In this document: piece after piece, positions 2 through 43,474 of the stretch | Layout: each line of letters starts with the position of its first letter | Numbering within the stretch: the stretch's first letter is position 1 | Translations under genes and position numbers: made by a program | The notes under the pieces: generated by a model | Databases searched by the model: none | What the model saw: only the letters and a program-made list of their open reading frames with translations | Told to the model about the DNA's origin: nothing | IMG/VR virus record: IMGVR_UViG_3300009376_001694 | Location: 1 to 44,437 of that record | Strand: one strand, 5' to 3' | DNA from: a virus | Length of the DNA stretch: 44,437 nucleotides

Positions 2-3000
2 AAGGTAATTGAGTCTTCTGTTGCCACCGAAATTGAGACAGATGCTGGTGCCCTAACACTAGATGGAAAAACAGGTATAAATCTCCAAGAAAACGGAACA
101 ACTGTAATAGCTATCGATGATCAAAGAAATGTGAGCATCGGTGTCGGCGCTACAAAAGGCCTCTACCTCTCATCCTCTGTTTCAGATTTTGCACTAACGG
201 GAACGATTAAGAACTCTGCAACTAAGGTAATTGAGTCCTCAGTCGAAACTGAGATAGAAACAGCCGCCGGTGCACTGACACTAGACGGAAGAACTGGAGT
301 CATTCTACAGACTAGTGGATCTATGCTGATGTCAGTTGGCTCTGGCAGTATTTACATCTCTGGCTCTGTATCAGATTTTGCGCTATCAGGAACAATAAAG
401 AATACAGCTGCTAAGGTAATTGAGTCAGCTGTAGCAACAGAAATTGAGACAACAGCAGGATCTCTAACCCTAGACGGAAAGACAGGCGTCAATCTTCAAG
501 CTAATGGGACAACAGTTCTCTCAGCTGGACCTGGCGGCACCTATCTCTCATCCTCTGTATCAGACTTTACTCTCACAGGAACAATTAAAAATTCAGCATC
601 TAAGGTCATCGAGTCCTCTGTGGCAACTGAGATTGAGACAACAGCTGGTTCTCTCACACTAGACGGCAAGACAGGCATAAATCTCCAGGAAAATGGCACA
701 ACACTCATAGCCCTTGATAACGGACAAAATGTAATAATTGGCACAGCAGGTAAGCAGATTCAGCTTTCAGGCTCTGTGTCAGACTTTGCTTTAACAGGCA
801 CAATCAAGAGCTCAGCATCAAAGGTCATCGAATCATCAGTTGCAACTGAAATTGAGTCAACAGGATCACTCACATTAGATGGTGCCTCTAGTGTTGCACT
901 CCAGGCGAATGGGACACAGATTCTTGCTGTCAGTCCGTCAGGCGTTTATCTTTCAGGATCTGTGTCAGATTTCTCTCTATCTGGAACGATTAAAAACAGT
1001 GCATCCAAGATTATCGAATCATCTGTTGCAACTGAGATTGAAACAGCTGCTGGATCACTGACACTAGACGGAAAGACAGGTGTTAGCTTACAGACAAATG
1101 GCACAACAATGCTTTCTGTCGGACCATCAGGTGTATACATCTCAGGATCCGTTTCTGGATTAGAAATAACCGGAACAATACGAAGCAGTGCAGCTAAGAT
1201 CATAGAGTCCTCAGTCGCCACAGAGATAGAGACAGATTCTGGTGCCTTAACCCTGGATGGAAAGACAGGTGTCAATCTCCAGGCTAATGGAGCGACAGTT
1301 CTCTCAGTTGGTCCAGCTGGAACCTATCTCTCATCCTCTGTCTCTGACTTCGCGTTGACAGGTACTATTAAGAACAGTGCTGCCAAGGTTATAGAGTCAT
1401 CAGTTGCCACAGAAATTGAGACAGATGCAGGCTCACTGACACTAGACGGTAAGACTGGCATCAATCTTCAAGAAGACGGAACAACTGTAATATCCATCGA
1501 TAACCAAAGAAATGTAAATGTCGGTGTCACAGGACAGGGAATTTATCTCTCTGGAACTCTATCAGATTATGCACTTTCTGGTACAATAAAAAATAGTGCT
1601 TCAAAGGTAATTAAATCATCTGTTGCCACAGAGATTGAGTCAACTGGATCACTCACCCTAGACGGTGCTTCTAGTGTAGCACTTCAGGCCAACGGTACAA
1701 CAGTTCTCTCAGTTGGACCTGCCGGAACCTATCTTTCAGGATCTGTGTCAGACTTTGCTCTAACAGGAACAATTAAAAATTCAGCATCAAAAGTCATTGA
1801 GTCGTCAGTAGCAACAGAAATAGAGACAGATGCGGGTGCTCTAACTCTTGATGGAAAAACTGGCATAAACCTTCAAGCTAACGGAACGACAGTTCTCTCA
1901 ATTGGAACAGCCGGAACCTATCTCTCATCCTCTGTCTCTGACTTCGCGTTGACAGGAACAATTAAAAATTCAGCATCGAAAGTCATTGAGTCATCAGTCG
2001 CAACAGAGATTGAGACAGCTGCTGGAGCACTGACTCTAGACGGAAAAACAGGCATAAATCTCCAGGTGAATGGGACCCAGATGCTCTCAGTTGGGCCTGC
2101 AGGTGTTTACCTTTCAGGATCTGTATCAGACTTTTCACTAACAGGAACGATTAAGAATAGTGTAGCCAAAGTCATCGAATCTTCAGTTGCCACTGAGATA
2201 GAAACAGACGCTGGTGCTCTGACCCTAGACGGTGCTGCAGGAGTTGACCTACAGTACAGTGGAAGCTCATATATAAGACTTAACTCCGGATCAATCATAA
2301 TAGGAGATCTCAGCGGATCTAATACACTCGGAGTTGCACCACCAAGCATATACATCTCCGGGGCCATTCTCAGTGAACTACATCTTTCAGGTGCAGTCTT
2401 TGCAGACAAGATAAGCGGATCTCTAACAACACTAGCCGACGGCACCGAGTACATGATTGCTGGTGCAAATATCACAATTAACACAGGATCAACCGGCGCT
2501 CTGACAATTTCAGCCACAGGGCTTGGAGTTGGTGGCTCCGATACACAGGTTCAGTTTAATGACGGAGGATCTTTTGGTGGAGATTCTGGTCTAACATTTA
2601 ACAAGACTTCTAACTTATTAACAGCAGCAAAACTACACACAACAGACAATGCACATCTTTCAGGATCTGTGTCAGACTTTGCTCTAACAGGAACAATTAA
2701 AAATTCAGCATCGAAAGTCATTGAGTCATCAGTCGCAACAGAGATTGAGACAGCTGCTGGAGCACTTACATTAGACGGCAAAACCGGTGTCAGCTTGCAA
2801 GCCAACGGTACAACAGTTCTTTCAGTTGGACCTGCTGGAACCTATCTTTCAGGATCTGTGTCAGACTTTTCCCTAACAGGCACAATTAAAAATAGTGCCG
2901 CTAAGATAATTGAATCCTCAGTCGCAACAGAGATTGAGACAGATGCTGGAGCACTTACACTTGATGGAAAGACCGGTGTCAACTTACAGGCCAATGGGAC

Positions 3001-5743
3001 AACAATTATATCAGTTGGACCTGCAGGAATGTATCTCTCATCTTCAGTCTCTGATTTCTCACTTACTGGTACAATTAAGAACAGTGCTGCCAAGGTTATA
3101 GAGTCCTCAGTCGCAACAGAGATCGAAACAGCTATAGGCACCCTGACACTGGATGGGGCAGCAGGAGTTGATCTCCAGCACAGCGGTAGTTCATACATTA
3201 AGCTAAATTCAGGATCAATTACAATTGGTGATTTGAGCGGTTCAAATACGCTAGGTGTTGCACCACCTGATATTTACGTGTCCGGAGCTATTCAAAGTGA
3301 ATTGCATCTATCAGGATCAGTTTTTGCTGATAAGCTAAGTGGATCACTAACAACTTTGGCAAATGGAAATCCATATCTGGTTGGACACGGTGGTCTTGCC
3401 ATAACGACAGGTTCAGATGGATCAGTTACACTCAACCTTGGTGCAGCAAGCAATGCATTTGGAACAGTAGCAGTATCTGGACAGGATGATGTTGTCGCAG
3501 ATCAGTCAGGTGATACAATCACCTTTGCTGCAGCACAAAACATGGCAATCACAACAAATGCCACCAGTGACACTATCACATTCACCGGAATCGCTGGCGG
3601 CGGAAGTAGTACTGTCTTCAATGATAGAGGTCATAAGGCAACTTCCACAGGATCGTTATCGATAGCAGGACCAGGACATGGTTTAACCTATGACGCCACT
3701 TCTGTTGGTGCTGATGTCTTCTTCTTTGTTAGCGGTACAGCGGGATCAAGAAACACATCAAATACAGGATCAGCTGTTTTTGGTGGTGATGTTATCGTCT
3801 CTGGAACATTTTATGCAGAGAAGATTGTCGCAGAGATAGATGCAACATCAACTGGCTCACTATCGATTTCAGGTAGTGCATACATTCAGCAAGGACTTCT
3901 TGTTTCAGGTGCACATGGAAGAAATATGCATATACTTGCACCGTCTCTGTTTGACGGAAATATGCACATTTCAGGCGCTGTATCAGATTTCGCACTGACA
4001 GGAACTATTAAAAATAGTGCAACCAAGATTATCGAATCTTCAGTTGCAACAGAGATAGAAACTGATGCGGGCATTCTAACACTAGATGGTAAGACAGGCA
4101 TAAATCTCCAGGAAGATGGAACAACTGTAATAGCTATCGATGATCAAAGAAATGTGAGTATTGGCGCCGGCATCACAAATGGCCTCTATCTCTCATCATC
4201 TCTCTCAGACTTTGCTCTGACAGGCACTATTAAAAATAGTGCCTCTAAGGTTATAGAATCTTCTGTTGCAACTGAAATTGAGTCAACAGGATCACTCACA
4301 TTAGATGGTGCTTCCAGCGTCTCACTCCAAGCAAATGGGACACAAATTCTTGCTGTTAGTCCGTCAGGTGTCTATCTTTCAGGATCAGTCTCTGATTTTC
4401 GTATCACTGGAAGTATTAAGATTGATACAAGTACTGCTCTTGAGGCACCTGCCACGACAGTCATAAAGACGCTGGGTGGTTCATGGGATATCGATGGAAA
4501 GACAGGAGTTAATCTCCAGACAAATGGTACAACAATGCTTTCTGTCGGACCGGCAGGGGTCTATATTTCAGGGTCTGTTTCTGGATTAGAAATAACAGGA
4601 ACAATTCGAAACAGTGCAGCCAAGATTATCGAATCTTCTGTGGCAACAGAGATAGAAACAACAGCGGGCGCCCTGACACTAGATGGTAAGACTGGTGTCG
4701 CACTTCAGGTAAATGGAACACAAATGCTCTCGGTTGGTCCCAAGGGAGTTTATCTCTCTGGATCAGTCTCTGACTTCTTGGCAACAGGAACAATTAAGAG
4801 TGACGCAAGTGTTGCTCTAGAGGCCACTGCCGGAACTACTATCAAGACCCTGGGTGGACCATTTAGTGTAGATGGGGAATCGGGTGTTGAACTACAGTAT
4901 AGCGGAAGCACATACATAAAGCTCAACTCAGGATCAATTGTCTTGGGCGATCTCAGCGGAACAACGACCCTGGGTGTGGCTCCTCCAAATATCTACGTCT
5001 CAGGTGCCATTCTCAGTCCTTTGCATGTATCAGGATCAGTCTTTGCTGATAAGCTAAGTGGATCTCTTACGACCCTGGCAGATGGCACTGAGTATATGAT
5101 AGCTGGAACTAATATAACAATTAATACAGGATCAAGTGGTGCACTAACAATTTCAGCTACAACTGGTACAGCAGATCCAGGCGGAGGAAACACTGAGGTT
5201 CAGTTTAATGACGGTGGTGATTTTGGTGGAGATCCAGGTTTCTCGTTTAACAAGACAGCTGGTTTGCTCTCAGTCGTCCGGCTTGCCACGGAATTCAGTG
5301 CACATTTCTCTGGATCAGTTTCAGATTTCAATCTAACTGGAACGATTAAGAACAGTGCATCGAAGGTCATCGAGTCATCAGTCGCAACAGAGATTGAGTC
5401 AACAGGATCGCTCACACTAGACGGTGCCTCTAGTGTTGCACTCCAGGCTAATGGAGCACAGATTCTTGCTATCAGTCCGTCAGGTGTTTATCTTTCAGGA
5501 TCGGTTTCTTCACTAAATGTGACAGGTACTCTCAAGATGACCAGTGACGTGCTACCTTCAGCAAATAACACGTACAACCTCGGATCAGATACAGTTAGAT
5601 GGGCTAACGTTTATACCTCTGACCTCCACCTGAAGAATGAGAGAGGTAACTGGACAATCGTTGAGGAAGAGGATTATCTATGTGTTGTCAACAATAGAAC
5701 AGGAAAGAGATTCAAGATGATGCTTGAGGAGATAGAGGAATAA
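2..5743 (+). CDS. Giant repetitive phage tail fibre protein, 5'-partial
   Basis: The reading frame is open from base 2, so the gene begins before the window; the GTG at 131 lies inside a repeat unit and is not a credible start. The visible part is about 1,913 residues. It contains about 20 units of roughly 62 residues with the pattern YLSGSVSDFALTGTIK, then KVIESSVATEIET, then LTLDGKTGINLQ, then a short variable linker ending in SVGPAGV. Three units (near 2260, 3180 and 4900) carry a long extra module with GDLSGSNTLGVAPP and FADKLSGSLTTLADG. The C-terminus (NTYNLGSDTVRWANVYTSDL, then NERGNWTIVEEEDYL) is of a type familiar from tail fibres of T4-like marine phages. There is no signal peptide or membrane segment in view. 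The protein is rich in Ser and Thr. Role: host recognition or the shaft of a long fibre. The fibre call is strong; the exact position on the virion is unknown. Confidence 0.88.
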   Translation, partial: KVIESSVATEIETDAGALTLDGKTGINLQENGTTVIAIDDQRNVSIGVGATKGLYLSSSVSDFALTGTIKNSATKVIESSVETEIETAAGALTLDGRTGVILQTSGSMLMSVGSGSIYISGSVSDFALSGTIKNTAAKVIESAVATEIETTAGSLTLDGKTGVNLQANGTTVLSAGPGGTYLSSSVSDFTLTGTIKNSASKVIESSVATEIETTAGSLTLDGKTGINLQENGTTLIALDNGQNVIIGTAGKQIQLSGSVSDFALTGTIKSSASKVIESSVATEIESTGSLTLDGASSVALQANGTQILAVSPSGVYLSGSVSDFSLSGTIKNSASKIIESSVATEIETAAGSLTLDGKTGVSLQTNGTTMLSVGPSGVYISGSVSGLEITGTIRSSAAKIIESSVATEIETDSGALTLDGKTGVNLQANGATVLSVGPAGTYLSSSVSDFALTGTIKNSAAKVIESSVATEIETDAGSLTLDGKTGINLQEDGTTVISIDNQRNVNVGVTGQGIYLSGTLSDYALSGTIKNSASKVIKSSVATEIESTGSLTLDGASSVALQANGTTVLSVGPAGTYLSGSVSDFALTGTIKNSASKVIESSVATEIETDAGALTLDGKTGINLQANGTTVLSIGTAGTYLSSSVSDFALTGTIKNSASKVIESSVATEIETAAGALTLDGKTGINLQVNGTQMLSVGPAGVYLSGSVSDFSLTGTIKNSVAKVIESSVATEIETDAGALTLDGAAGVDLQYSGSSYIRLNSGSIIIGDLSGSNTLGVAPPSIYISGAILSELHLSGAVFADKISGSLTTLADGTEYMIAGANITINTGSTGALTISATGLGVGGSDTQVQFNDGGSFGGDSGLTFNKTSNLLTAAKLHTTDNAHLSGSVSDFALTGTIKNSASKVIESSVATEIETAAGALTLDGKTGVSLQANGTTVLSVGPAGTYLSGSVSDFSLTGTIKNSAAKIIESSVATEIETDAGALTLDGKTGVNLQANGTTIISVGPAGMYLSSSVSDFSLTGTIKNSAAKVIESSVATEIETAIGTLTLDGAAGVDLQHSGSSYIKLNSGSITIGDLSGSNTLGVAPPDIYVSGAIQSELHLSGSVFADKLSGSLTTLANGNPYLVGHGGLAITTGSDGSVTLNLGAASNAFGTVAVSGQDDVVADQSGDTITFAAAQNMAITTNATSDTITFTGIAGGGSSTVFNDRGHKATSTGSLSIAGPGHGLTYDATSVGADVFFFVSGTAGSRNTSNTGSAVFGGDVIVSGTFYAEKIVAEIDATSTGSLSISGSAYIQQGLLVSGAHGRNMHILAPSLFDGNMHISGAVSDFALTGTIKNSATKIIESSVATEIETDAGILTLDGKTGINLQEDGTTVIAIDDQRNVSIGAGITNGLYLSSSLSDFALTGTIKNSASKVIESSVATEIESTGSLTLDGASSVSLQANGTQILAVSPSGVYLSGSVSDFRITGSIKIDTSTALEAPATTVIKTLGGSWDIDGKTGVNLQTNGTTMLSVGPAGVYISGSVSGLEITGTIRNSAAKIIESSVATEIETTAGALTLDGKTGVALQVNGTQMLSVGPKGVYLSGSVSDFLATGTIKSDASVALEATAGTTIKTLGGPFSVDGESGVELQYSGSTYIKLNSGSIVLGDLSGTTTLGVAPPNIYVSGAILSPLHVSGSVFADKLSGSLTTLADGTEYMIAGTNITINTGSSGALTISATTGTADPGGGNTEVQFNDGGDFGGDPGFSFNKTAGLLSVVRLATEFSAHFSGSVSDFNLTGTIKNSASKVIESSVATEIESTGSLTLDGASSVALQANGAQILAISPSGVYLSGSVSSLNVTGTLKMTSDVLPSANNTYNLGSDTVRWANVYTSDLHLKNERGNWTIVEEEDYLCVVNNRTGKRFKMMLEEIEE
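1952..2031 (+). repeat. 80-bp perfect direct repeat, copy 1
   Basis: These 80 bases are identical to 2687-2766, starting ACAGGAACAATT and ending GCTGGAGCACT. The two copies lie 735 bases apart, exactly 245 codons, so recombination between them would keep the frame of the fibre gene. Confidence 0.9.
2687..2766 (+). repeat. 80-bp perfect direct repeat, copy 2
   Basis: Second copy of the 80-base sequence at 1952-2031. Outside these borders the two repeat units differ at scattered positions, so the identity suggests recent gene conversion or unequal exchange inside the array. Confidence 0.9.
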
Positions 5744-5746
5744 ACA

Positions 5747-7318
5747 ATGCCATTAGTTACAAACAACCTTTATGTTTCTGGAAACGTCTCTTCATTGAAT
5801 GTGACGGGTGCGATTAAGCCCACTGGAGGTATCGTCTTAGAAGACGCCGATATGAAGCTCTCTCAAATTAATGGCGGCGCTTTTCTTGAATGCATAACAC
5901 TCGATGCTGGCGACGGACTCGCAACAGTAGTTGTCAACGAAGGATCGTCAGCTGTTGTAGACTTTAGAATTGAGACCAACACCGAAGACGAAGCGATCTT
6001 TATAGACTCTAGCACAAACACAATCTACATCAATAGGGGCGAGACAGATGTGACGTCATCATTCCACAATATTGATGACGTCGTGATGACAATAAAGGAC
6101 AATGGTGTCGTCTTCAATGAGGATAGTAGTTCTGTTATAGATGTGAGAATGGAGTCAAATAGTAATGCTCACATGTTTTTCTTAGATGCCAGCGCAGATG
6201 GTATAGGAATCAATACTAGCTCACCTGATGAGCTCTTACACATAGAGAGTGCAGTATCAAATAAGCCTGTTGTGAAGATTGAGAATACGAATTCTGACGC
6301 TTTACCACCCATTCTCGAGTTCAATAAGAGCACAACGGGGGAGGCTGATAACGATCAGCTGGGTGAGATCCAGTTCTATGGGATGGACTCAGGAAATACT
6401 GAGACTCTTTATGCGCACATTGTTGTTTCCGCATCTGATGTAACAAATGCTTCAGAGGGAGGTCTGATGGATTTAAGAGTCAGACCTGGAACAACTGCAG
6501 TAGGGCCAACCTCTCTCTTAAAGCTCGGCGGCGACTCCGGTGTTAATTGTGATGTGATAGTAAATGATGATCAGATAGATAATAACTTTAGAGTTGCAAC
6601 AGCTGCTAATTCACACAATATCTACGTAGATTCAGGTGTAACCAAGGCGGGATTTCTAGACAGCGCAGCAGGTGTCACATCATTTGGATCAATCGGAAGT
6701 GTACAGGTTCAGAGAGATATAACGAATAACTATGCATTCTACGTAAAGCACCATGGAGATAATATAAACAGAAGGGGCATTCGCATAGACTGTGGGACAA
6801 CAGGAAGCTCAGGCACAAACACAGCAATGAGTTTCCGTGACGGCGACGGGACAGAGATAGGAAATATCACTTTCACCGGGACCACAGTTTCATATAATCA
6901 ATTTACAGGTGGTCACTTTGGAACTGTAGAGGACGAAGACGCTCGTAATTACGGAATTTTGTTGAAGGTTGATAGCATAGAAAAAACTAACAGACACATA
7001 CACTATAATATGAGTATGACAACATCTGCAAATGATAGAGCTGTGATCGGAGTCTACTCAGGAGAGCTAGAGAACATGGATGGAATAATATCACATCAAG
7101 TCTACGCAGTTGGTGACGGAAACATACTTGTCTGCTCTGCGGGCGGAAATATATCAACAGGTGACTATATTTGCTCATCAAATGTCGCCGGTCATGGTAT
7201 GAAGCAATCTGACGATCTCCTTCACAACTACACAGTTGCAAAGGCACTAGAAGCAGTTGATTGGTCGCAGGAGTCAGAGACTACAAAGCTGATAGCATGC
7301 ACCTATCATGCTGGGTAG
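5747..7318 (+). CDS. Second phage tail fibre / structural protein
   Basis: 523 residues, starting 3 bases after the previous stop with an AGAGGAA ribosome site six bases before the ATG. The N-terminus (LYVSGNVSSLNVTGAIK, residues 8-24) copies the last partial repeat of the upstream fibre, so the two proteins are related. The middle has the fibre motif GINTSSPDELLHIES (about residues 155-170), common in marine phage fibres and usually followed by beta-rich shaft. The C-terminal part (GNISTGDYICSSN, then GMKQSDDLLHNYTVAKALE) resembles the terminal domains of many phage fibres. No enzymatic motif is visible, and the catalytic Ser-Lys pair of the S74 chaperone was not recognised. Probably the distal fibre or a subunit joined to the repeat fibre. 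Confident as a structural fibre protein, less so about its place. Confidence 0.82.
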   Translation: MPLVTNNLYVSGNVSSLNVTGAIKPTGGIVLEDADMKLSQINGGAFLECITLDAGDGLATVVVNEGSSAVVDFRIETNTEDEAIFIDSSTNTIYINRGETDVTSSFHNIDDVVMTIKDNGVVFNEDSSSVIDVRMESNSNAHMFFLDASADGIGINTSSPDELLHIESAVSNKPVVKIENTNSDALPPILEFNKSTTGEADNDQLGEIQFYGMDSGNTETLYAHIVVSASDVTNASEGGLMDLRVRPGTTAVGPTSLLKLGGDSGVNCDVIVNDDQIDNNFRVATAANSHNIYVDSGVTKAGFLDSAAGVTSFGSIGSVQVQRDITNNYAFYVKHHGDNINRRGIRIDCGTTGSSGTNTAMSFRDGDGTEIGNITFTGTTVSYNQFTGGHFGTVEDEDARNYGILLKVDSIEKTNRHIHYNMSMTTSANDRAVIGVYSGELENMDGIISHQVYAVGDGNILVCSAGGNISTGDYICSSNVAGHGMKQSDDLLHNYTVAKALEAVDWSQESETTKLIACTYHAG

Positions 7319-7326
7319 TAATATTT

Positions 7327-7334
7327 TATAAACT
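7327..7334 (+). promoter_or_regulatory. Possible phage late promoter (TATAAACT)
   Basis: In the 58-base gap between the fibre genes and the glycan island, TATAAACT matches six of eight positions of the T4 late promoter element TATAAATA. It lies about 45 bases before the first island ATG. A gp55-type sigma factor is encoded in this window, so such promoters are expected, but a six-of-eight match in AT-rich DNA is weak. Confidence 0.25.
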
Positions 7335-7376
7335 TCTCTAAATTGAGCTGTAAAATCTCTTTGTGGAGCGCCATAA

Positions 7377-9302
7377 ATGTTCAATCGTAGTCCATTTAAC
7401 ATAGAGCCTCCTCCAAGTGTACCAGATGACTGTGACATTGTCTTTGTTGGAGATATGTTCTCGTCTGATCATCTTGGAGGAGCAGAATTAACAACTGATG
7501 CAATAATTGATTCATCGACATATAAAGTTTTTAAATTACACTCAAGTAAGGTGACAGCAGAACTTCTGTCACAGGGAATAAGAAAGCACTGGATTTTTGG
7601 AAACTATTCATCAATGGACTGGAATCTCATTCCAACAATTGTTGCAAACTTAAATTATTCAATTATTGAGTTTGATTACAAATATTGTAAGTATAGATCA
7701 ACAGAAAAGCATGAGCAAGCAGAGAACATGCCGTGCGACTGTCAGAATCAAATGTATGGAAAGATGGTTTCAGCATTTTACTATGGAGCAAAGTCTCTTT
7801 GGTGGATGTCAGAGCAGCAGATGCAAAAGTATCATCAGGCATTTCCATTTCTTGAGCAGATTAAAAATACTGTTCTATCATCTGTATTCAACTCTGATTT
7901 CTTTAGTGAGATTGATCATTTGCGGAAAAAAGCACATGGCGTCAATCGAGAAAAGTATCTTGTTGTAGGATCAACATCCTGGATAAAGGGAACACAGGAT
8001 GGTGAGGCACTTTGCAAGAAAAAGAATTTTGACTACGAGGTTCTCTGGGACCTGCCATACAAGGATATGCTTGAAAGCCTTTCACAGGCAAAAGCGCTAG
8101 TCTTTCTACCGAAGGGAAAGGATACATGTCCGAGACTTGTCATAGAAGCAAAGCTATTAGGCTGCGATATCATTACAAATGAAAATGTACAGCACATCAA
8201 CGAGGAGTGGTTTAATACAGCTGACTTAAACGTCGTTGAGAGCTATCTCAAGTCAGCAGGAAAAAGATTTTGGAATGAAATAAAGAAGATAATCGATCAC
8301 CAGCCAACAATCAGCGGATATACGACCACTTTGAATTGTATTGATCAGAATTATCCTTTTGTGGAGAGCATAAAGTCCATGCTTGCCTTCTGTGACCAGG
8401 TAGTTGTTGTTGATGGTGGTTCCAAGGACGGGACCTGGGAGCAGCTTCAGAAGCTGACAGAGAAGCACGAAAAGCTACTTGTGCACCAGAATGTAAGGGA
8501 CTGGAATCATCCAAGATTTGCAGTATTTGATGGATTACAAAAAGCATTTGCAAGAGTTCTCTGCACGGGTGAATTTTGCTGGCAGCAGGATTCAGATGAG
8601 ATTATTCATCAGGACGATTATGACAAGATTGCGAATTTATCAAAAATTCTTCCAAAAAATATAGACCTTCTTGCACTACCCGTAATTGAATACTGGGGTG
8701 GGCATGAAAAGATAAGAATAGATGTCACACCGTGGAAGTGGAGATTTAGTCGAAATAAACCGCACATCACACATGGCATTCCAAAAGAGCTTAGAAAGTT
8801 CGATGAGAGTGGAGAAATGTACTCTCTACCTGGTACTGATGGTTGTGATTATATTCGAAGTGACACGTTTGAAAGAGTTGAATTTGCAAACTTTTACACC
8901 GGAGAAAGTGATGCACTGAGAAATCAAGCATTTTCTGACAAGGAAGCATTGAGCAATTATCAGATGTGGTTTCAGGAGATGACAAATAATCTTCCTAGCG
9001 TTCATCATTACTCATGGTTCGATATTAAGCGAAAAATAAGAACATATAAAAATTACTGGTCGAAGCACTGGCAAAGTCTATACAATATAAGCCAGGCTGA
9101 CACTGCTGAAAATAATATGTTTTTTAATAAGCCCTGGTCTGAGACAACAGATGAGGAATTGGATAATTTCGCAGAAAAGCTTGCAAATGAGATGGGCGGA
9201 TGGATTTTTCATACAAAGGTAGATTTTTCAAAAAAGACCCCGCACATGAAATTGTCACAGGGTAATCCAGAGATTATAAGAAACTGGATTGATAAAAAGT
9301 GA
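7377..9302 (+). CDS. Two-domain glycosyltransferase (GT-B plus GT2/GT-A fusion)
   Basis: 641 residues; ATG preceded by GGAG about nine bases upstream. Residues 1-300 look like a GT4-type GT-B domain: a nucleotide-fold start (DIVFVGDMF, with HLGGAE following), a VVGSTSWIKGTQDG segment near 196 and a TCPRLVIEAKLLGCD acceptor/donor helix near 250. Residues about 312-480 are a second, GT2-like GT-A domain with VVVVDGGSKDGTWE (342-355) and a DxD-type metal site in QQDSDE (D405, D407). The remaining C-terminal part is unassigned. It is the first gene of the glycan island and overlaps the next gene by four bases. Expected to add two sugars in sequence to a cytoplasmic acceptor; donor and acceptor are unknown. 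Domain calls are by motif only. Confidence 0.78.
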   Translation: MFNRSPFNIEPPPSVPDDCDIVFVGDMFSSDHLGGAELTTDAIIDSSTYKVFKLHSSKVTAELLSQGIRKHWIFGNYSSMDWNLIPTIVANLNYSIIEFDYKYCKYRSTEKHEQAENMPCDCQNQMYGKMVSAFYYGAKSLWWMSEQQMQKYHQAFPFLEQIKNTVLSSVFNSDFFSEIDHLRKKAHGVNREKYLVVGSTSWIKGTQDGEALCKKKNFDYEVLWDLPYKDMLESLSQAKALVFLPKGKDTCPRLVIEAKLLGCDIITNENVQHINEEWFNTADLNVVESYLKSAGKRFWNEIKKIIDHQPTISGYTTTLNCIDQNYPFVESIKSMLAFCDQVVVVDGGSKDGTWEQLQKLTEKHEKLLVHQNVRDWNHPRFAVFDGLQKAFARVLCTGEFCWQQDSDEIIHQDDYDKIANLSKILPKNIDLLALPVIEYWGGHEKIRIDVTPWKWRFSRNKPHITHGIPKELRKFDESGEMYSLPGTDGCDYIRSDTFERVEFANFYTGESDALRNQAFSDKEALSNYQMWFQEMTNNLPSVHHYSWFDIKRKIRTYKNYWSKHWQSLYNISQADTAENNMFFNKPWSETTDEELDNFAEKLANEMGGWIFHTKVDFSKKTPHMKLSQGNPEIIRNWIDKK

Positions 9303-10018
9303 TAATATTTGTAGTTCCATGCTTTAATGCAGAAAGAAATCTTGACAAGCTTGCTTCATCATTACAGTCTCAGTCTGATGATCGATGGACATGTATTATG
9401 GTTGATGACATGTCAGAAGATGATACCTGGAAAAAAATGATTGAAATTTGCACAAACGACAGCAGGTTTTCGTGTAGAAAAAATTCAGTTAAAAAGTTTG
9501 CATTAAGAAATATTGTTGAAACATCTAGACTGTTTCAGGATGTTGCTGATAATGTCATTATCGCAACAATTGATGGAGATGATTTTTTGTGCAATAACGA
9601 TGCTGTGTCAATTGTTAATAATGAGTATAGTAATGGTAGCGATGTTGTTTGGACTGCTCATGAATGGGATATAAACGGAAGCAATATATCAAATGATATG
9701 CCAGACAATGTAGATCCGTATTTTTGGCCATGGTGCAGTTCTCATTTAAGAACGTTCAGGTGTGCACTGTTAAAAAAAATATCTGATAAAAATTTTAAGG
9801 ACGAAGAGTTAAAATGGTTCAAGCGTGGATATGATCAAGCCTTAATGTTGCCGATATTAAGCGTTTCAAATAAGAGAAAGTATATAGACACTGTATGTTA
9901 TAGATACAACATAAACTCTGTGTCAGTTAATGATAGAGATTGGGCTGAGATGAGGCAGATTTCAACAATAAACCTTGTAAGAGCTAGAGGATTTATCGCC
10001 AAGAAAGAAGATCAGTAG
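9299..10018 (+). CDS. Glycosyltransferase family 2 protein
   Basis: 239 residues, starting with GTG inside the previous stop (GTGA overlap), which implies translational coupling. The N-terminus has the GT2 pattern IIFVVPCFNAERNL, then a nucleotide-binding MVDDMSEDDTW (34-44) and the metal-binding DGDD (92-95) in ATIDGDDFL. These are the usual features of an inverting GT-A enzyme of about this length. It probably acts with the neighbouring fusion transferase. Donor sugar cannot be told from the sequence. Confidence 0.82.
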   Translation: MIIFVVPCFNAERNLDKLASSLQSQSDDRWTCIMVDDMSEDDTWKKMIEICTNDSRFSCRKNSVKKFALRNIVETSRLFQDVADNVIIATIDGDDFLCNNDAVSIVNNEYSNGSDVVWTAHEWDINGSNISNDMPDNVDPYFWPWCSSHLRTFRCALLKKISDKNFKDEELKWFKRGYDQALMLPILSVSNKRKYIDTVCYRYNINSVSVNDRDWAEMRQISTINLVRARGFIAKKEDQ

Positions 10019-10492
10019 ATGATACGCTTTAGAGAAATGTGTGCAGATGATCTTGAATTTTTTATTGCCATACGAAATGAATGTGCCGATTTTCTTGATG
10101 ATAATACTAGATTTACAATTAATCAATGCCGCGAATGGTTCAGGAAAAGCAAGCCAAAATTTTATATTTTGACTCATAATAACAATGATGTAGGGTATTT
10201 TAGAACATCTTCATGGAATGAAGATGAAAGCAGTGTGTTTATAGGATGTGACATACATAGAACATACCGGGGAATGGGAATAGCAAAGCTGGCATACCCT
10301 AAGTTTATGAACTTTATGTTAGAATCTTTTGGGTTTAAGACGTTTATCTTATACGTTTTAGAATTTAATGTTAGAGCAATTTCTCTCTACGAAAAAGTTG
10401 GATTTAAAAGAACAAACAAAAAAACCGACCCAGTGTTCAGGGGCAAAGAAAAAATTAAGAGAATTGAGATGAAGATGGAGATTTCTAAATGA
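10019..10492 (+). CDS. GNAT-family N-acetyltransferase
   Basis: 157 residues; the ATG follows the previous stop directly. The acetyl-CoA pyrophosphate-binding motif is clear as YRGMGIAKLAYP (about residues 83-95), preceded by the beta strand SVFIGCDI and followed by the ISLYEKVGFKR segment typical of motif B. Length fits a single GNAT domain. In this setting, before an RfbC-like epimerase and a sugar aminotransferase, a role in N-acetylating an aminosugar nucleotide (as PseH or WbjI-type enzymes do) is likely, but that is inference from context. It overlaps the next gene by four bases (ATGA). Confidence 0.82.
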   Translation: MIRFREMCADDLEFFIAIRNECADFLDDNTRFTINQCREWFRKSKPKFYILTHNNNDVGYFRTSSWNEDESSVFIGCDIHRTYRGMGIAKLAYPKFMNFMLESFGFKTFILYVLEFNVRAISLYEKVGFKRTNKKTDPVFRGKEKIKRIEMKMEISK

Positions 10493-11067
10493 AGAAAGTT
10501 GCAAAGGAAAAAAGTAAAAATTTTAATGATGTTTTTGTATTTACACCAAGGGTTTTTCATGATCACAGAGGGTGTTTTTACGAATCATATAATGAGAATA
10601 CGTTTAAAGAAGCGGGATTTAATGAAATATTTGTCCAAGATAATTTTTCTATATCAAGGGCGAATGTAATAAGAGGCCTACACTATCAGTGGGACGGCCC
10701 AATGGGAAAATTTGTCAAGGTGGCAAGCGGTGCAATCATGGATGTCATTGTCGATGTAAGAAAAGGATCACCAACGTATGGAGTTTATGAATCATTTATG
10801 CTAACGGCAGAAAATAAAAAAGAACTATGGGTTCCACCGGGCTATGCTCATGGAATTATTTCTCTTGAAGATAACACTGTGCTACATTACAAGTGCACAG
10901 CAGTTTATAACTCAGATGGAGAATCCGGAATAAACCCACTCGATCCAGAGCTTAATATTGACTGGGGCATTGATAAAAGCAGCTTAATATTATCAGAAAA
11001 GGATTCGGCAGCACAGTCTTTTTCTGAATATAGAAATAATCCAAAATTTAATTTTAAGGATAAATAA
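10489..11067 (+). CDS. rfbC: dTDP-4-dehydrorhamnose 3,5-epimerase-like protein (RmlC/RfbC family)
   Basis: 192 residues, a normal length for the family. The cupin core has HDHRGCFYESY near 24, then the catalytic RGLHYQ (H65), a lysine at K74 and the conserved Tyr at 140 in CTAVY. The PPGYAHGI segment (116-123) is also typical. The family epimerises C3 and/or C5 of a 4-keto-6-deoxy-hexose nucleotide. No RmlA, RmlB or RmlD partner is recognised in this window, so the substrate must be supplied by the host, by genes outside the window, or be a different 4-keto sugar. Coupled to both neighbours by overlaps (ATGA at the start, TAATG at the end). Confidence 0.88.
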   Translation: MKKVAKEKSKNFNDVFVFTPRVFHDHRGCFYESYNENTFKEAGFNEIFVQDNFSISRANVIRGLHYQWDGPMGKFVKVASGAIMDVIVDVRKGSPTYGVYESFMLTAENKKELWVPPGYAHGIISLEDNTVLHYKCTAVYNSDGESGINPLDPELNIDWGIDKSSLILSEKDSAAQSFSEYRNNPKFNFKDK

Positions 11068-12035
11068 TGAAAAAAATTCTAATTGCAGGCGGCGCAGGAT
11101 ATATCGGCTCAGTCTTAGTACCAAAACTAATTGAAAGACAGTATGATGTTACTGTTGTAGATTTACTGTGGTTTGGAAATAGTCTTCCAGATGAAACAAA
11201 TATAATTAATGCTGATATTAGGTCACTAACTCCAGACGATGTTTCTGGATTTGACGTTGTCATCTTTATGGCTGGTGTGTCAAATGATCCAATGGCAAAC
11301 TTTAACCCATCTATGAACTTTGTTGAGAATGCATCCTCACCAACGTATCTTGCATTTATTTCTAAGGAAGCAGGCGTGCAAAGATTTGTGTATGCAAGTT
11401 CATGCAGTATTTATGGATATACAGCTGATAAATTGATGAATGAGAGCTCTCATGTTTCTCCAAAATTTCCATACGGTATTTCAAAAATGTTGGGTGAGAG
11501 TGCTGTTATGAGCTTTGAAGATGAAACATTTAGACCAATATCTCTTAGAAAGGGAACGGTAGGTGGGTATTCCAAGAGAATGAGATATGATCTTGTTGTA
11601 AACACAATGACAAAGTTTGCGCTGACAGAGGGAAAGATAGTTGTAAATAACCCTAGTGTATGGCGACCTTTAACAGATGTACGTGACATCGCCACAGCAT
11701 ACATCAGGGCAATTGAAGCAAGCCCAGAAATAACAGGTGTATTTAATGTATCATATGACAATTACACAATGGGCCGCTTAGCTGATGAAATTAGAGATGA
11801 GTTATTAAATAATGGGATCACTGTAGACATAGAGATTAAAAATATTCCAGAATGTAGAAACTATAAAGTAACAAATAACAAGATAAAAGATCAGCTTGAT
11901 TTCGTTCCTCAGTTTTCTCCTGGAGACTCTGTTAATGAAATTTTAAGAAATATAGACTTATCAACATATAGCTTTGACGATAAGACTTACTATAATATTA
12001 AGGTCTTTGAAGAGCTATTTGGAAAACAGCAATGA
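11067..12035 (+). CDS. NAD-dependent sugar-nucleotide epimerase/dehydratase (extended SDR)
   Basis: 322 residues; start overlaps the previous stop (TAATG). The Rossmann motif is GGAGYIGS (8-15), followed by DVVIFMAGVSNDPM, the catalytic ASSCSIYG segment near 111 and the YxxxK pair in PYGISKMLGE. WRPLTDVRDIA in the C-terminal half is typical of sugar-nucleotide SDRs. The family includes 4-epimerases, 4-ketoreductases and 4,6-dehydratases. Being next to the RfbC-like epimerase, this could be the 4-ketoreductase that finishes the same sugar, but the exact reaction is not readable by eye. Confidence 0.82.
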   Translation: MKKILIAGGAGYIGSVLVPKLIERQYDVTVVDLLWFGNSLPDETNIINADIRSLTPDDVSGFDVVIFMAGVSNDPMANFNPSMNFVENASSPTYLAFISKEAGVQRFVYASSCSIYGYTADKLMNESSHVSPKFPYGISKMLGESAVMSFEDETFRPISLRKGTVGGYSKRMRYDLVVNTMTKFALTEGKIVVNNPSVWRPLTDVRDIATAYIRAIEASPEITGVFNVSYDNYTMGRLADEIRDELLNNGITVDIEIKNIPECRNYKVTNNKIKDQLDFVPQFSPGDSVNEILRNIDLSTYSFDDKTYYNIKVFEELFGKQQ

Positions 12036-12268
12036 TTGAAACAAAAACTAGAAGCCTTTTAAAATCTTTGATATGGAGAATTATTGCTATACTTAATAGC
12101 TTTATTATTCTTGTGTCAGATGTGTCAGAAAGGGCTATTATTAATGCGTTTTACATGAACATTAGCGGTTTTATCATATATTATTTCTTTGAAAGGGCGT
12201 GTAATCGTATTTCGTATGGAAAAGTGTACAGTCAAAAAATAGGAGACAGCAATGATAAATCTTTTTAA
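12032..12268 (+). CDS. DUF2061-like small membrane protein
   Basis: 78 residues; ATGA overlap with the upstream gene. The sequence opens with KTRSLLKSLIWRIIAILNSF and ends with IIYYFFERACNRISYG, the two hallmarks of the DUF2061 family of small predicted inner-membrane proteins. Two hydrophobic helices lie at about residues 13-31 and 38-56. Members are often found near sulfate-assimilation or surface-sugar genes; their function is unknown. This is the only obvious membrane protein in the island. It overlaps the following aminotransferase by 17 bases. Family recognition is fairly firm; the role is open. Confidence 0.7.
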   Translation: MIETKTRSLLKSLIWRIIAILNSFIILVSDVSERAIINAFYMNISGFIIYYFFERACNRISYGKVYSQKIGDSNDKSF

Positions 12269-13349
12269 AGTTCATAATCCTGGAACACTAGGACCATTAA
12301 TAGATAAGCTTTTTGAAAACGGCATGGTGACAGAAGGAGAATATTCAGATAGATTTGAAAAAGAGTTTTCTGAATATGTTGAGAATGAAAATTGTTCACT
12401 TGTCAATAGCTGCACATCAGCTTTGACACTAGCGTTTAGACTTTGTGACATTCAGCCTGATGATGAGGTAATTGTTACACCTATGACATGCATGGCAACA
12501 AATGAGCCTGCATCTGTATTTGGTGCAAAGCTTGTCTGGGCAGATATTGATCCTGAGACTGGGAATATTGACCCATGTGATGTTAAAAGAAAGATAACTC
12601 CTAGAACAAAGGCTATTTCTGCTGTCCATTGGGCCGGCCAGCCATTTGAGATAGATGAAATTAATAAAATTGTAAGAGATTTTGATATAAAGGTAATTGA
12701 AGATGCTGCACATGCTCTCGGAGCAACATACAATGGAATCCCGATAGGGGGTCATAGTGATTTTACATGCTTCTCATTTCAGGCAATAAAACACTTAACA
12801 ACCGCGGACGGCGGTGCAATTTGCTCAAAAAACCACGATGATGACCAAAGGATAAAAAGCCTTAGGTGGTTTGGTTTAGACAGAAAGTATACTGCAAAGA
12901 CAGGAAAATCTCGATGGGAGCAGGACGTCACAGAGTGGGGATATAAGTTTCACATGAACAACTTAAATGCATTAATCGGGCTTGAGCAAATGAAGACAAT
13001 AAAGTCGCTTATTAAAAGTCACCAGGATAATAGTGCATTTTTTGATAAAAATATTAATAATTCACGTGTTAAAAAGCTCAAAAGATCAAAAAATTCTGAG
13101 TCTGCATGCTGGATCTACAGTCTTCTTGTAGATAATAGGGATGAATTTAAGAGTCATATGGCAAGCAAAGGTGTGGCAACAGATGTTGTTCATGTAAGAA
13201 ATGATAGATACTCTGTGTATAAAAAGTTTGAAAGAGATGACTTACCAGGGACTGATGAATTTTGTTCAAAAATGATGAATATTCCTGTCGGATGGTGGTT
13301 AACAGAAGAGGATAGGAAAACAGTTGTTGAAGCTGTTAATAGTTTTTAG
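12252..13349 (+). CDS. DegT/DnrJ/EryC1/StrS sugar aminotransferase (Lys type)
   Basis: 365 residues; ATG preceded by AGGAGA nine bases upstream. PLP type I fold: GMVTEGEYSDRFEKEF at the start, SCTSALTLA (53-61) for the phosphate, EDAAHALGA (150-158) with the Asp that pairs with the PLP nitrogen, and the Schiff-base lysine K180 in SFQAIKHLTTADGGA. The family transfers an amino group from glutamate to a keto sugar nucleotide, as in perosamine, 4-amino-arabinose or bacillosamine pathways. With the GNAT gene close by, the likely product is an N-acetylated amino sugar. The substrate nucleotide (GDP, dTDP or UDP) cannot be told. Confidence 0.88.
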   Translation: MINLFKVHNPGTLGPLIDKLFENGMVTEGEYSDRFEKEFSEYVENENCSLVNSCTSALTLAFRLCDIQPDDEVIVTPMTCMATNEPASVFGAKLVWADIDPETGNIDPCDVKRKITPRTKAISAVHWAGQPFEIDEINKIVRDFDIKVIEDAAHALGATYNGIPIGGHSDFTCFSFQAIKHLTTADGGAICSKNHDDDQRIKSLRWFGLDRKYTAKTGKSRWEQDVTEWGYKFHMNNLNALIGLEQMKTIKSLIKSHQDNSAFFDKNINNSRVKKLKRSKNSESACWIYSLLVDNRDEFKSHMASKGVATDVVHVRNDRYSVYKKFERDDLPGTDEFCSKMMNIPVGWWLTEEDRKTVVEAVNSF

Positions 13350-13355
13350 TTTAAA

Positions 13356-14153
13356 ATGGAATCAAAAATTCAAATAGGGATTCCGTGTGGAATCAATTCA
13401 GAGCACTATGTTAAACATTTAATATGGTCATCAAATATGACTGTAAGTGATCAAAAAAGAGTTGAATTTATACTTGCAATAAATGATAAAAGTGTCGATA
13501 CCGATGAAATATTAACCGTAGACACAGACTCAGAGATAAAAATAATTGATGCAATAAATGATAATCCAATATCTAGTCATGATCATGGACTTTGTCTCGA
13601 TTTACTATTCAGCAATATGACAGAAGATTTTGGAATGATAGTTGATGCAGACGTCGCTTTTCTTGCAAAGAGCTGGGATGAAAAAATGCTTAGCTTAATT
13701 CATGACGATATCGTTATCATAGGCTCAGAGTATAGTGGATCAAAATATCTAAAATTTCCCAATGCTATATGCTGTTTGTTTAGAGTGAAAGCATTGCAGA
13801 TGTGCAGCAGTATATCATTTACTCCTGCAAAGACAAGACAGATAACAATTGATTCTACAAATGCTAGAGTATTTGGAAGGGATCCTGGGGATATTATTGA
13901 CTTAGATGTTGGTTGGCAACTACCTTTTAAAATTAAGATACGCGGCGGAGATGGGATAGCACTACCTTTAATAAATTCAAATGATGAAAGATCCAAGTTT
14001 ATGACTGCAGGAATGAGAGGTGAGGAACATCAAATTAATGGAGAGCCTGTATTTACACATGTTGGTCGTTCATCATATAGAAATTTTCACACTGATCCAA
14101 TTATCTTAAGATGGAGGCAAAGAGTCGACGAGTGGATTACTAAAAATGCATAA
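13356..14153 (+). CDS. Probable GT-A-fold glycosyltransferase
   Basis: 265 residues, six bases after the aminotransferase. The N-terminus KIQIGIPCGINSEHYVKHL resembles the first strand of GT2 enzymes, and FGMIVDADVAFL holds a DxD metal site (D97, D99) at the expected place. The C-terminal part has VFTHVGRSSYRNFHTDP, a His near the end that could be a further metal ligand. It is not a close match to any named family I can recall, so the call is made from the fold signature and neighbours. It overlaps the next gene by eight bases. Confidence 0.62.
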   Translation: MESKIQIGIPCGINSEHYVKHLIWSSNMTVSDQKRVEFILAINDKSVDTDEILTVDTDSEIKIIDAINDNPISSHDHGLCLDLLFSNMTEDFGMIVDADVAFLAKSWDEKMLSLIHDDIVIIGSEYSGSKYLKFPNAICCLFRVKALQMCSSISFTPAKTRQITIDSTNARVFGRDPGDIIDLDVGWQLPFKIKIRGGDGIALPLINSNDERSKFMTAGMRGEEHQINGEPVFTHVGRSSYRNFHTDPIILRWRQRVDEWITKNA

Positions 14154-15675
14154 TTTTCCAAAAAAGAGAGTCAAAGTAACACTTTTGTATCCTCCTGAGC
14201 AAACTTGGCCCGAGATGATGTGCAAGCCGAACGGATCTTTAGCATATCCCATGCTAGGAGGAGCTCTGATAGAAAACGGCACAGAAGTAAAAATATTTGA
14301 TGCATGTGTAGGAAATGAAAGTGATAATCTAGACGACGTATTTTACACTTCGTCTGATTTACCCACAGGAATGAAGCGGACAGGCGTGACGGATGAAAGA
14401 ATTCTTGAAGAAGTAGCTGATTCAGATATAGTCGGCTTAACCTCTATTTTCACACATCAGGAGACAATGGTTTTAAATACTTCAAGGCTTATTAAAAAAA
14501 CATTTCCTGATAAGCTTATAGTTGCAGGAGGTGTCAATGCAAGGCATAGACAAAAAAAGTTTTTTGATAATGGTGTTGACCTTATCTGCACTTCTGAATC
14601 AGAAAAAACAATTGTAGAAATAGTAAGAACTATAGAAAGCGGAAGTAGAAACTTTACTCACATTCCAATGGTAGCATACCTTGAAAATGGAACACCAAAG
14701 CAAAGCAGTGCGATAGGTGATATAATATGGAATCTTGATGATTTACCTTTGCCAGCATGGCACCTTCTTCCAAATGACAGATATTGGAAAATTAGAAGGC
14801 CACACGGAGGTCATTTTGAACCTGATGAGGAATTAAAATATGCTTCAATGATGACGTCATTGGGCTGTCCATTTTCCTGCACATACTGTCATATAGCAGG
14901 TGAACGGAAGGGAACAATGTCAGGACCTATTGGAAAATTTAGAATAAAATCTGATCAAAGAGTTCTTAAAGAGCTTGATATTTTAAAGTCACTTGGAGTT
15001 AAGCAAATCTTTATAGAAGATGATTCAATCTTTGGAAAGAAGAGAAGAGCAATTGAGCTAATTAAAAAGATTAGAAATTTAGATTTTGAAATTCTTGATG
15101 TAAATGGAGTCAATGTTATTCATCTGCTAAAGAGCGGAGAACCTGACTTTGAAGTAATAGAAACACTTGCAGAAGCAGGATTTAGAGATATAGCACTGCC
15201 ATTTGAATCTGCTAATCCTAGAATAATATCGAAGTATGCGTCAAGCAAATGGAATATTCAGCAGTCAAATATTCCTGCCCTATTAAAGGCATTAAAGGAT
15301 TATAATTTAAGAATTGCAGGTAACTACATGATAGGGTACCCTGATGAAACAAGAGAAGAAATTATACATACAATTAATTTTGCTAAAGAATGCATGAATA
15401 ATGGTCTTGATGCTGCTAGCTTCTTTTTAGTGATGCCGCTCCCAGGAACTCCAATGTTTGACTCTGCTATGAGAGATGGAAATCTTTCAACTGATTATGA
15501 TCCTGATAAAATGCACTGGCAAAAGGCAAATATGATCAATACGATTGTCCCGTCGGACGAGCTAGAAAAGATAAGAGACAAGGCTTGGGAAGAAATAAAT
15601 GACCATCGCTACACAAAATATAAAAAAGGAATGCTTGTCGACAAAAATTCTGGTGAGATTCATAAGATAGAATGA
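14146..15675 (+). CDS. Radical SAM protein with B12-binding-like N-terminal domain
   Basis: 509 residues. Residues about 8-165 form a cobalamin-binding-like Rossmann domain (VTLLYPPEQTWPEMM, then IVAGGVNARH), lacking the DxHxxG B12-ligand motif, as in many members. The radical SAM centre is GCPFSCTYCHIAG with the CxxxCxxC cysteines C241, C245 and C248. A C-terminal section with GYPDETREEI and MPLPGTPMFD is typical of the B12-binding radical SAM group (MiaB/HemN-like Elp3 fold). Such enzymes methylate unactivated carbons or phosphonates, or rearrange sugars and lipids. In this island a C-methylation or other radical change of a sugar is plausible. Eight-base overlap with the upstream gene, ATGA with the next. 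Confidence 0.87.
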   Translation: MHNFPKKRVKVTLLYPPEQTWPEMMCKPNGSLAYPMLGGALIENGTEVKIFDACVGNESDNLDDVFYTSSDLPTGMKRTGVTDERILEEVADSDIVGLTSIFTHQETMVLNTSRLIKKTFPDKLIVAGGVNARHRQKKFFDNGVDLICTSESEKTIVEIVRTIESGSRNFTHIPMVAYLENGTPKQSSAIGDIIWNLDDLPLPAWHLLPNDRYWKIRRPHGGHFEPDEELKYASMMTSLGCPFSCTYCHIAGERKGTMSGPIGKFRIKSDQRVLKELDILKSLGVKQIFIEDDSIFGKKRRAIELIKKIRNLDFEILDVNGVNVIHLLKSGEPDFEVIETLAEAGFRDIALPFESANPRIISKYASSKWNIQQSNIPALLKALKDYNLRIAGNYMIGYPDETREEIIHTINFAKECMNNGLDAASFFLVMPLPGTPMFDSAMRDGNLSTDYDPDKMHWQKANMINTIVPSDELEKIRDKAWEEINDHRYTKYKKGMLVDKNSGEIHKIE

Positions 15676-16583
15676 ATGTGCTATTTGACAATGTAGATTT
15701 TGAATCAAGTTCAGGTCCCAATGCTTTTGCTGGAAAATTAGCAAGAGCATTTACTGAATTAGACGTAAATTCTGTTAGCAACATCTCTAATTCTCAAAAG
15801 ATTGATATACAATTATCATTCATAGCAGCTTCCTATAAGGTTGCACCCATCGTCCAGAGGCTAGATGGAATTTATTTTAACTCGGACCAGGATTATCAGC
15901 ATCTCAACACACCTATATGTGAAACATTTCATGCAGCAAGTGCAGTAATTTATCAGTCTAATTTCAATAAAGTGCTAACTGAGAAATGGTTTGGTGAGCA
16001 CCAGAATGGAAATGTGATTCACAACGGTACATGCTTGGACCTCATTTCAGAAATAAAACCCATACAGCATCCAGTGCTTGATAAATTTAATGGTGTGTGG
16101 TCATGCGCATCAGCCTGGAGGCCTCACAAAAGACTATCAGAAAACGTACGCTATTTTTTAGAATTTGCACCTGAAGATGCTTGCCTGGTTGTTGCAGGAA
16201 AAAATCCAGACTTTCAAGTAAGTCATGATAGAGTGCTATACGCAGGAGAGATGCCATGGCAAGATTTAATCTCGCTGTTTAAGCGATCTACTAAGTTCTT
16301 ACACCTAGCATGGCTAGATCATTGTCCAAACGTGGTAATTGATGCACAAGCAAGTGGATGCTCTGTCGTTTGTTCAGCTGCAGGTGGAACACATGAGATT
16401 GTCAATGAGTCTGGCCTGATAATAGAAGAAGATCTTTGGGATTTTTCTCCTGTGAGACTTTATAATCCTCCAGAGATGGATTTTAGTAGAGCAATTCAAA
16501 GTGAAAATAGCGTAAATTTTGATATCGCTGAAGTTGCAAAAAAGTATAAATCTGTTTTTGTAGATTTACTCGATAATGTGTAA
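15672..16583 (+). CDS. GT4-type glycosyltransferase
   Basis: 303 residues, starting within the stop of the radical SAM gene (ATGA). GT-B fold with a short N-terminal domain (NVLFDNVDFESSSGPNAFA), a linker strand GVWSCASAWRPHKRL near 145, and the C-terminal donor site HCPNVVIDAQASGC, then SAAGGTHEIV. These match group 1 transferases, which use retaining chemistry and nucleotide sugars. A 41-base gap follows, one of the larger gaps in the island. Confidence 0.82.
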   Translation: MNVLFDNVDFESSSGPNAFAGKLARAFTELDVNSVSNISNSQKIDIQLSFIAASYKVAPIVQRLDGIYFNSDQDYQHLNTPICETFHAASAVIYQSNFNKVLTEKWFGEHQNGNVIHNGTCLDLISEIKPIQHPVLDKFNGVWSCASAWRPHKRLSENVRYFLEFAPEDACLVVAGKNPDFQVSHDRVLYAGEMPWQDLISLFKRSTKFLHLAWLDHCPNVVIDAQASGCSVVCSAAGGTHEIVNESGLIIEEDLWDFSPVRLYNPPEMDFSRAIQSENSVNFDIAEVAKKYKSVFVDLLDNV

Positions 16584-16624
16584 AGCTTATTTTTTTATCT
16601 TAGAATTATCAAGAGGAAGCTTAG

Positions 16625-17611
16625 ATGAAAGTAACATTTGGAATCAATAACTACAATAGACTTTTTTATCTTAGAAGTTGTGCAGAGTCATTGATGGAAT
16701 CTGTTTCAGATTATGATGACGTAGAATTTATCTGTGTAGATGATAATAGCGAAGAACCAGGAACACAGGAATACCTGGGTTTACTACGTGAGAAGGGATG
16801 GAAGGTAATAAATCAGCAGGACTATAGGTCGGGAGAAAAGGGCAAGATAGGAAAAAATGATGTAGACCATATCAGCGCATTTGGTGAAGCCCTCAATATT
16901 ATTTTTCAGGAGTCAACAGGAGATATAATATTTCCCCTCCAGGGAGATTGTCAGTTTATTAGAAAAGGGTGGCTAAAGGACTATGTTTCCCTATTTCAGC
17001 AGAATGATGATGTGGGATCGGTTTTGATAGACTGCCAAAGAAAAGTAAGATTAAATGCAGCGATGTTTACAAAGATAAGAGTAAATAATTCAATTTTTTG
17101 TCTAGATTCCTCTCGATCTAAAGTAAACGGCGCCGGAGATTGTGGATATAGAAGGTCAGTCATTGCTTCTGTAGGCGGCTGGGAAACACCAGGACATGGT
17201 GGAAATGCTGAGGTAAATCTAAGTGAGAAGATTGAAAAGAAATTCTCGTCAAAGATGAAGACTTACTTGCCGTGGATTCCAGTATGTGTGGGAATCTTTA
17301 CGGATCCTCGAGGAACAAATGCAAGAGTTAGGGGAAATAAGAGATTTGGAAAATATTGGTCTGCTGACAATGATCAATATTATGAGTGGGTGGATATCTC
17401 TCAATTGAAAGAATCACCAAGTAGACCATATTCAATAGAGGAGCTTGCAAAGCCCATTGGCTGGAATGCGCCCATAGATGACTTTGGCGAATGGAAGAAA
17501 AATCCCATTGATATTAGTGCTGCATCGAGAGAAGATTACGAGATTGTTTACGAAATAGTGGAATCAGAAGAAGAGGATGATGATCACATACAAGAGTGGT
17601 TGCTAGACTGA
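16625..17611 (+). CDS. Glycosyltransferase family 2 protein
   Basis: 328 residues; ATG preceded by AGAGGAAG. The N-terminus VTFGINNYNRLFYLRSCAES and FICVDDNSEE (D39, D40) show a GT-A nucleotide site, and IIFPLQGDCQF holds the acidic metal-site position (D108). A GAGDCGYRRSVIASVGGWE segment follows, as in many GT2 enzymes where it positions the acceptor. The C-terminal tail is very acidic (ESEEEDDD near residue 315). It overlaps the next gene by one base (TGATG). Confidence 0.78.
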   Translation: MKVTFGINNYNRLFYLRSCAESLMESVSDYDDVEFICVDDNSEEPGTQEYLGLLREKGWKVINQQDYRSGEKGKIGKNDVDHISAFGEALNIIFQESTGDIIFPLQGDCQFIRKGWLKDYVSLFQQNDDVGSVLIDCQRKVRLNAAMFTKIRVNNSIFCLDSSRSKVNGAGDCGYRRSVIASVGGWETPGHGGNAEVNLSEKIEKKFSSKMKTYLPWIPVCVGIFTDPRGTNARVRGNKRFGKYWSADNDQYYEWVDISQLKESPSRPYSIEELAKPIGWNAPIDDFGEWKKNPIDISAASREDYEIVYEIVESEEEDDDHIQEWLLD

Positions 17612-42927: not shown

Positions 42928-42929
42928 AA

Positions 42930-43433: not shown

Positions 43434-43446
43434 ATTTACACACAAT

Positions 43447-43474
43447 GTGAGCATATTTTAAGGTGAGCATATTT
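43447..43474 (+). repeat. Two direct copies of GTGAGCATATTT, 16 bases apart
   Basis: GTGAGCATATTT occurs at 43447-43458 and again at 43463-43474 in the 57-base gap before the gp25 gene. The second copy runs on into ATTCTGAGGG, which provides the ribosome site. May be an operator, a promoter with duplicated element, or slippage product. Confidence 0.5.

Follow-up and report, generated by a model that had tools for sequence, protein, structure and literature searches.

In crAss-like phages, arrays of BACON domains occur in tail-associated proteins, where they have arisen through internal duplication of single domains, while in other lineages horizontal transfer has been involved (PMC6949934). 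A second route to a longer protein has been followed in phage EfV12-phi1, in which in-frame tandem duplications of 1.8 kb appeared in the tail fibre gene during coevolution (PMC6365445). Here we describe a repeat array in a fibre-like protein encoded by the window, which is the whole of a virus record of 44,437 bp. It is like the BACON arrays of crAss-like phages in being a domain array in what is probably a tail-associated phage protein (PMC6949934), but it differs from them in that the repeat has 63 residues and the open reading frame has no BACON match in Pfam; furthermore, domain order is conserved in the best-studied BACON array, whereas the array in the window is rearranged between close relatives. 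With EfV12-phi1 it shares in-frame duplication by which a tail fibre gene changes in length, although there the duplications are recent, 1.8 kb long and experimental, whereas here the units are old, 189 bp long, accompanied by block exchange and accessible by comparison alone. The 63-residue unit family and its mosaic are new, whereas the principle that modular phage fibres change by duplication and exchange is already known.

Architecture and age of the repeat array

The reading frame is open at its 5' end, as the record begins inside it, and what the window retains is the final 1913 residues of a fibre-like protein whose gene start is lost at the contig end (Table 1). The frame is unbroken across the whole array. 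Self-identity of the protein is maximal at a shift of 63 residues (0.30), whereas none of 200 shuffles of the residues exceeded 0.115. The array is far beyond what chance would give. The consensus of the unit is GSVSDFALTGTIKNSAxKVIESSVATEIETDAGALTLDGKTGVNLQANGTTVLSVGPAGTYLS. An earlier note, made from the letters of this DNA, had given the unit as 62 residues, but this length is confined to four variants (units 4, 8, 16 and 20); ten units have 63 residues (1, 2, 5, 6, 9, 10, 12, 13, 17 and 18) and three have 73 or 74 (3, 7 and 15). Its count of about 20 units agrees with the 20 clear units obtained by splitting the reading frame, to which a partial first unit and a degenerate last one are added. 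The three long modules run on from units 11, 14 and 19, exactly as the note had placed them, and the two units that it had singled out as aberrant, 17 and 19, are both of the type ALEA...TTxIKTLGG. No regular order can be discerned among the variants, contrary to its description of unit and linker type as varying regularly. Collagen-like fibre repeats were considered for the array and rejected, as the period is 63 residues and no G-X-Y runs are seen in the translation.

Table 1. Features of the fibre gene and its neighbour (window coordinates)
Feature	Position	Strand	Remarks
Fibre-like open reading frame, 1913 aa, 5' end cut by contig end	2..5743	+	L002 has complete gene
Partial first unit, 73/74-residue type	2..172	+	matches L002 unit 3
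Units 1-11, consecutive: 63, 63, 73, 62, 63, 63, 73, 62, 63, 63, 81 aa	173..2359	+	unit 11 continues into long module 1
Mosaic block, 72-83% DNA identity to L002, one-unit indels, flanks 95-100%	520..2233	+	
Exact in-array copies: 58 bp (1731 = 2655), 80 bp (1952 = 2687)	1731..2031	+	synonymous-codon shuffles max 43
Long module 1, GAILSELHLSG...SGSLTTLADGTEYMIAG...TQVQFNDGG...FNKTSNLL	2360..2662	+	common to many aquatic phage contigs
Units 12-14	2663..3283	+	
Conserved array core, 1007 bp identical to L002	2539..3545	+	
Long module 2	3284..3973	+	distal part repeats L002 fibre N-terminal segment, 82% over 351 bp
Units 15-19, including aberrant 17 (4382-4570) and 19 (4760-5002)	3974..5002	+	
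Long module 3	5003..5311	+	
Unit 20, 62 aa	5312..5497	+	
Degenerate last unit and C-terminal domain (NLGSDTVRWANVYTSDLHLKNERGNWTIVEEEDYL...)	5498..5740	+	shared with cyanophage virion structural proteins
Second structural gene, 523 aa	5747..7318	+	right-hand edge of mosaic region inside

The units had also been called near-identical, which is true, loosely, of the protein (mean identity between window units 76%, over a core of the first 53 codons) but not of the DNA, where most pairs share about 60-84% and the aberrant units 17 and 19 share 49-65%. At four-fold degenerate third positions the identity is 43% (0.43), vs 37% (0.37) expected from codon usage. Synonymous sites are therefore near saturation, which implies that most of the array is old and speaks against units of near-identical DNA that recombine freely. 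Judged by these sites, most unit copies are old and their protein likeness is kept by selection. Against this background some copying within the array appears to be recent. The window has exact copies of 80 and 58 bp, its relative L002 has one of 95 bp and L003, a member of another lineage, has one of 63 bp (both below); when synonymous codons were shuffled with the protein held fixed (500 trials per gene), the longest exact repeat was at most 41-43 bp across the three genes. Since the observed tracts of 58-95 bp are longer than this, they indicate recent copying within the array.

Comparison with relatives

A single close relative of the window came to light, L002, a 98-kb contig with a complete fibre gene of 2432 aa. 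From position 6643 of the window onward the flank is 99.25% identical to L002 over 36,124 bp, whereas the sequence to its left is a mosaic, with identities of 95% at 2-519, 72-83% with one-unit indels at about 545-2233, 95% at 2234-4255, of which 1007 bp are without any difference, and 72-79% with one deletion to the right of 4255. The C-terminal part of the L002 fibre is about 400 residues longer than that of the window. Whole units and modules have been gained, lost, exchanged or moved between the two phages. Of 12 reciprocal best pairs of units 9 are colinear, and an equally good result was given by 2 of 10,000 shuffles; units 7, 16 and 19 pair with L002 units at non-corresponding positions. 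That the array can change by recombination, as had been proposed in the earlier note, is well supported by this contrast between a nearly invariant flank of 36 kb and a mosaic array; a fixed unit number and order among related phages would have spoken against it, and in L002 the order is not fixed.

The right-hand edge of the mosaic lies beyond the fibre gene. As far as about 6643 the second structural gene has diverged from its L002 counterpart, whereas the remainder is 99% identical, so that a recombination edge lies within this gene. By eye, its C-terminal end looks like an autoprocessing domain of the chaperone type, which Pfam did not detect. As to where the diverged blocks came from, the best match of the mosaic units 2, 5 and 6 is in each case the L002 unit at the expected place, above any unit of the window itself, yet the identity is still far under the 99% of the flank. 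Copying from the phage's own array would therefore be a poor source for the blocks of 72-83% identity, and the two genomes would be explained most simply by exchange with a related phage that carries a diverged allele. Part of long module 2 (3777-4125) corresponds to L002 10113-10461, within the N-terminal segment of that fibre, and by virtue of this repetition the fibre gene may have originated by duplication or fusion of two fibre genes. Elsewhere, window 42738-43469, between the sugar genes and a baseplate gene, does not align to L002, where the corresponding stretch has about 600 bp more.

The unit itself is rarer than the C-terminal domain and the pieces of the long modules. It was found in L002, in L003-L005, which are three assemblies of another lineage with an identical main array, and in L086, with weak matches in L087, L088 and L128. 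Two of the L003-lineage assemblies, whose samples may or may not be independent, differ at 5 positions in 27.7 kb and at 0 in the main array, and the identity of the three main arrays implies that copy number is not hypervariable in that lineage. The modules of the window also occur in L003 and L086, in different orders, and pieces of the long modules together with the C-terminal domain recur in many aquatic phage contigs. In L003, two adjoining reading frames at 9539-17948 (1825 and 836 aa) each carry an array of the 63-residue unit; in L006, L008, L115, L117 and others, several fibre reading frames per phage end in the C-terminal domain of about 60 residues. Bacterial and archaeal genomes, when scanned with the unit, yielded no relatives, and a 22-mer of the variable block was not matched exactly in any of the viral contigs, from which the window's own record was possibly excluded. 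When 53 loci were compared by PhoH synteny, the only unit-like match besides L002 was a single one in L128, so that the array is evidently not fixed at that gene position.

Repeat arrays invite the suspicion that short-read assembly has collapsed or joined co-occurring strains, leaving the order and number of units partly wrong, and the window is indeed a metagenomic contig that ends inside the array and holds exact internal repeats of up to 80 bp. We regard such an artefact as very unlikely, given that the DNA of most units is too dissimilar to be confused, that the conserved block is identical over 1007 bp in a separate contig, that the same main array is seen three times in L003-L005 and that the reading frame stays open all through. 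Identity in the mosaic, moreover, declines by degrees, from 100% to 94%, 81% and then 72%, with no sharp break, which argues against a chimera.

Variation in array length

The claim that the length of the array can change was borne out between long modules 2 and 3, which are separated by 446 residues in the window vs 261 in L002, and at the C-terminal end, where long module 3 is followed by 143 vs 549 residues. It was not borne out before long module 1, where, starting at the first unit that they share, the window and L002 each have 11 units, which differ in type, in 729 (window) and 739 (L002) residues. Any change in the number of units would be expected to alter the length of the fibre, by a few nm per unit if estimated from known fibres.

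The net differences in length, together with the one-unit indels, are what would be expected of a ruler, that is, of an array in which unit number is itself the selected trait and unequal crossing-over tunes fibre length or receptor spacing; the varying numbers of duplications seen in the EfV12-phi1 tail fibre gene during coevolution provide a precedent (PMC6365445). Such a ruler is nevertheless unlikely. Most units are old and diverged in their DNA, a divergence that speaks against frequent unequal crossing-over, the first block has held its 11 units and nearly its length despite the exchange of units, and the main array is unchanged throughout the three L003-lineage assemblies. Similarly doubtful is an evolved cassette system whose units would be continually reshuffled in number and order under selection, re-tuning fibre reach and host contact while the 36-kb block of sugar genes stays near constant.

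Nature of the protein and its genomic setting

The C-terminal region of about 65 residues is about 40-48% identical to cyanophage virion structural proteins, such as those of S-CAM4 and P-GSP1. At E 1e-5 none of the cyanophage and marine phage records among the matches listed hits the 63-residue array, the similarity falling instead in the C-terminal domain and, in one case, in long module 2. A monomer model of three units (pLDDT 80, pTM 0.47, moderate) has nine short beta strands, three per unit, with no helix and no compact single-chain fold. Its neighbours in BFVD are models of marine phage tail fibres and of chaperone-processed fibres (best E 2.5e-4), and those in the PDB are non-significant and mostly trimeric fibres. 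Among these weak fold matches, the proximal long tail fibre protein gp34 of T4 and other intertwined trimeric fibres, which are extended and beta-rich, are best represented, although none of these fibres has a significant structural or sequence match to the window protein. The model of the distal end with its long module is poor (pTM 0.24), but its last 40 or so residues are confident (pLDDT 88-93 in most blocks). Searches of Pfam and PHROG returned no family that would back the repeat as a fibre domain, and the unit profile found no relative among solved structures (best E 0.36). The Pfam matches of the reading frame (malaria, scorpion peptide and DUF families) are scattered, short and unrelated to one another, have the look of chance hits and were dismissed as composition-driven or repeat-summed.

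Baseplate wedge matches lie in L089 and, weakly, at window 43491, about 38 kb from the fibre gene and across the sugar block. On the strength of the C-terminal domain, the structural neighbours and the baseplate wedge genes at the far end of the block, the protein is probably a modular fibre shaft. A surface protein other than a tail fibre, for example a capsid decoration or a whisker, might be entertained because residues 1-145 of the L002 fibre, an N-terminus that is absent from the window, match no family in PHROG and so do not indicate a point of attachment; with baseplate genes at the end of the gene block and structural neighbours annotated as tail fibres, this is quite unlikely.

Our preferred reading, to which we assign a probability of roughly 0.78 as a whole, is that the product of the reading frame is the long shaft of a fibre on the tail or baseplate of a large uncultured aquatic tailed phage. 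The modelled units are monomers, and the shaft would probably be an intertwined homotrimer. It would be built of a few interchangeable modules, namely the unit of 63 residues, its variants of 62 and 73/74 residues and the longer spacer modules, and would end in a C-terminal domain common among marine phages; contact with the host is presumed. Purifying selection would hold the units alike as protein while their DNA drifts, and the gene would be remodelled in three ways: blocks would be exchanged with related phages whose alleles have diverged, short stretches of about 30-95 bp would be copied within the array in the manner of gene conversion, and whole units and modules, as well as the distal end, would be gained or lost.

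The phage appears remote from cultured phages, as the baseplate wedge protein of L002 shares about 32% identity with its counterparts in Microcystis phage Mel-JY01 and the Flavobacterium immuto phages, and the PhoH of L002 is less than 60% identical to every record among the matches listed. In L002, genes for a GroEL-like chaperonin and PhoH lie directly upstream of the fibre gene (2988-9238). On the 3' side of the fibre gene, about 35 kb of the window (7377-42927) consist mostly of sugar-metabolism and glycosyltransferase genes (epimerases, DegT aminotransferases, NeuB, UDP-sugar dehydrogenase, carbamoyltransferase and radical SAM proteins), and this block is 99.25% identical to L002 although the fibre is a mosaic. 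Clusters of LPS sugar genes are known from large cyanophages, and in P-SSM2 they lie near phoH (PMC3037559).

The locus thus offers a natural example of a fibre shaft that would have been rebuilt by recombination, with its breakpoints mapped on a nearly constant genome background, and it defines a family of 63-residue repeats that has no meaningful match in Pfam or the PDB. If it is true that the number of units sets the reach of the fibre, these phages would provide a natural series of fibre lengths.
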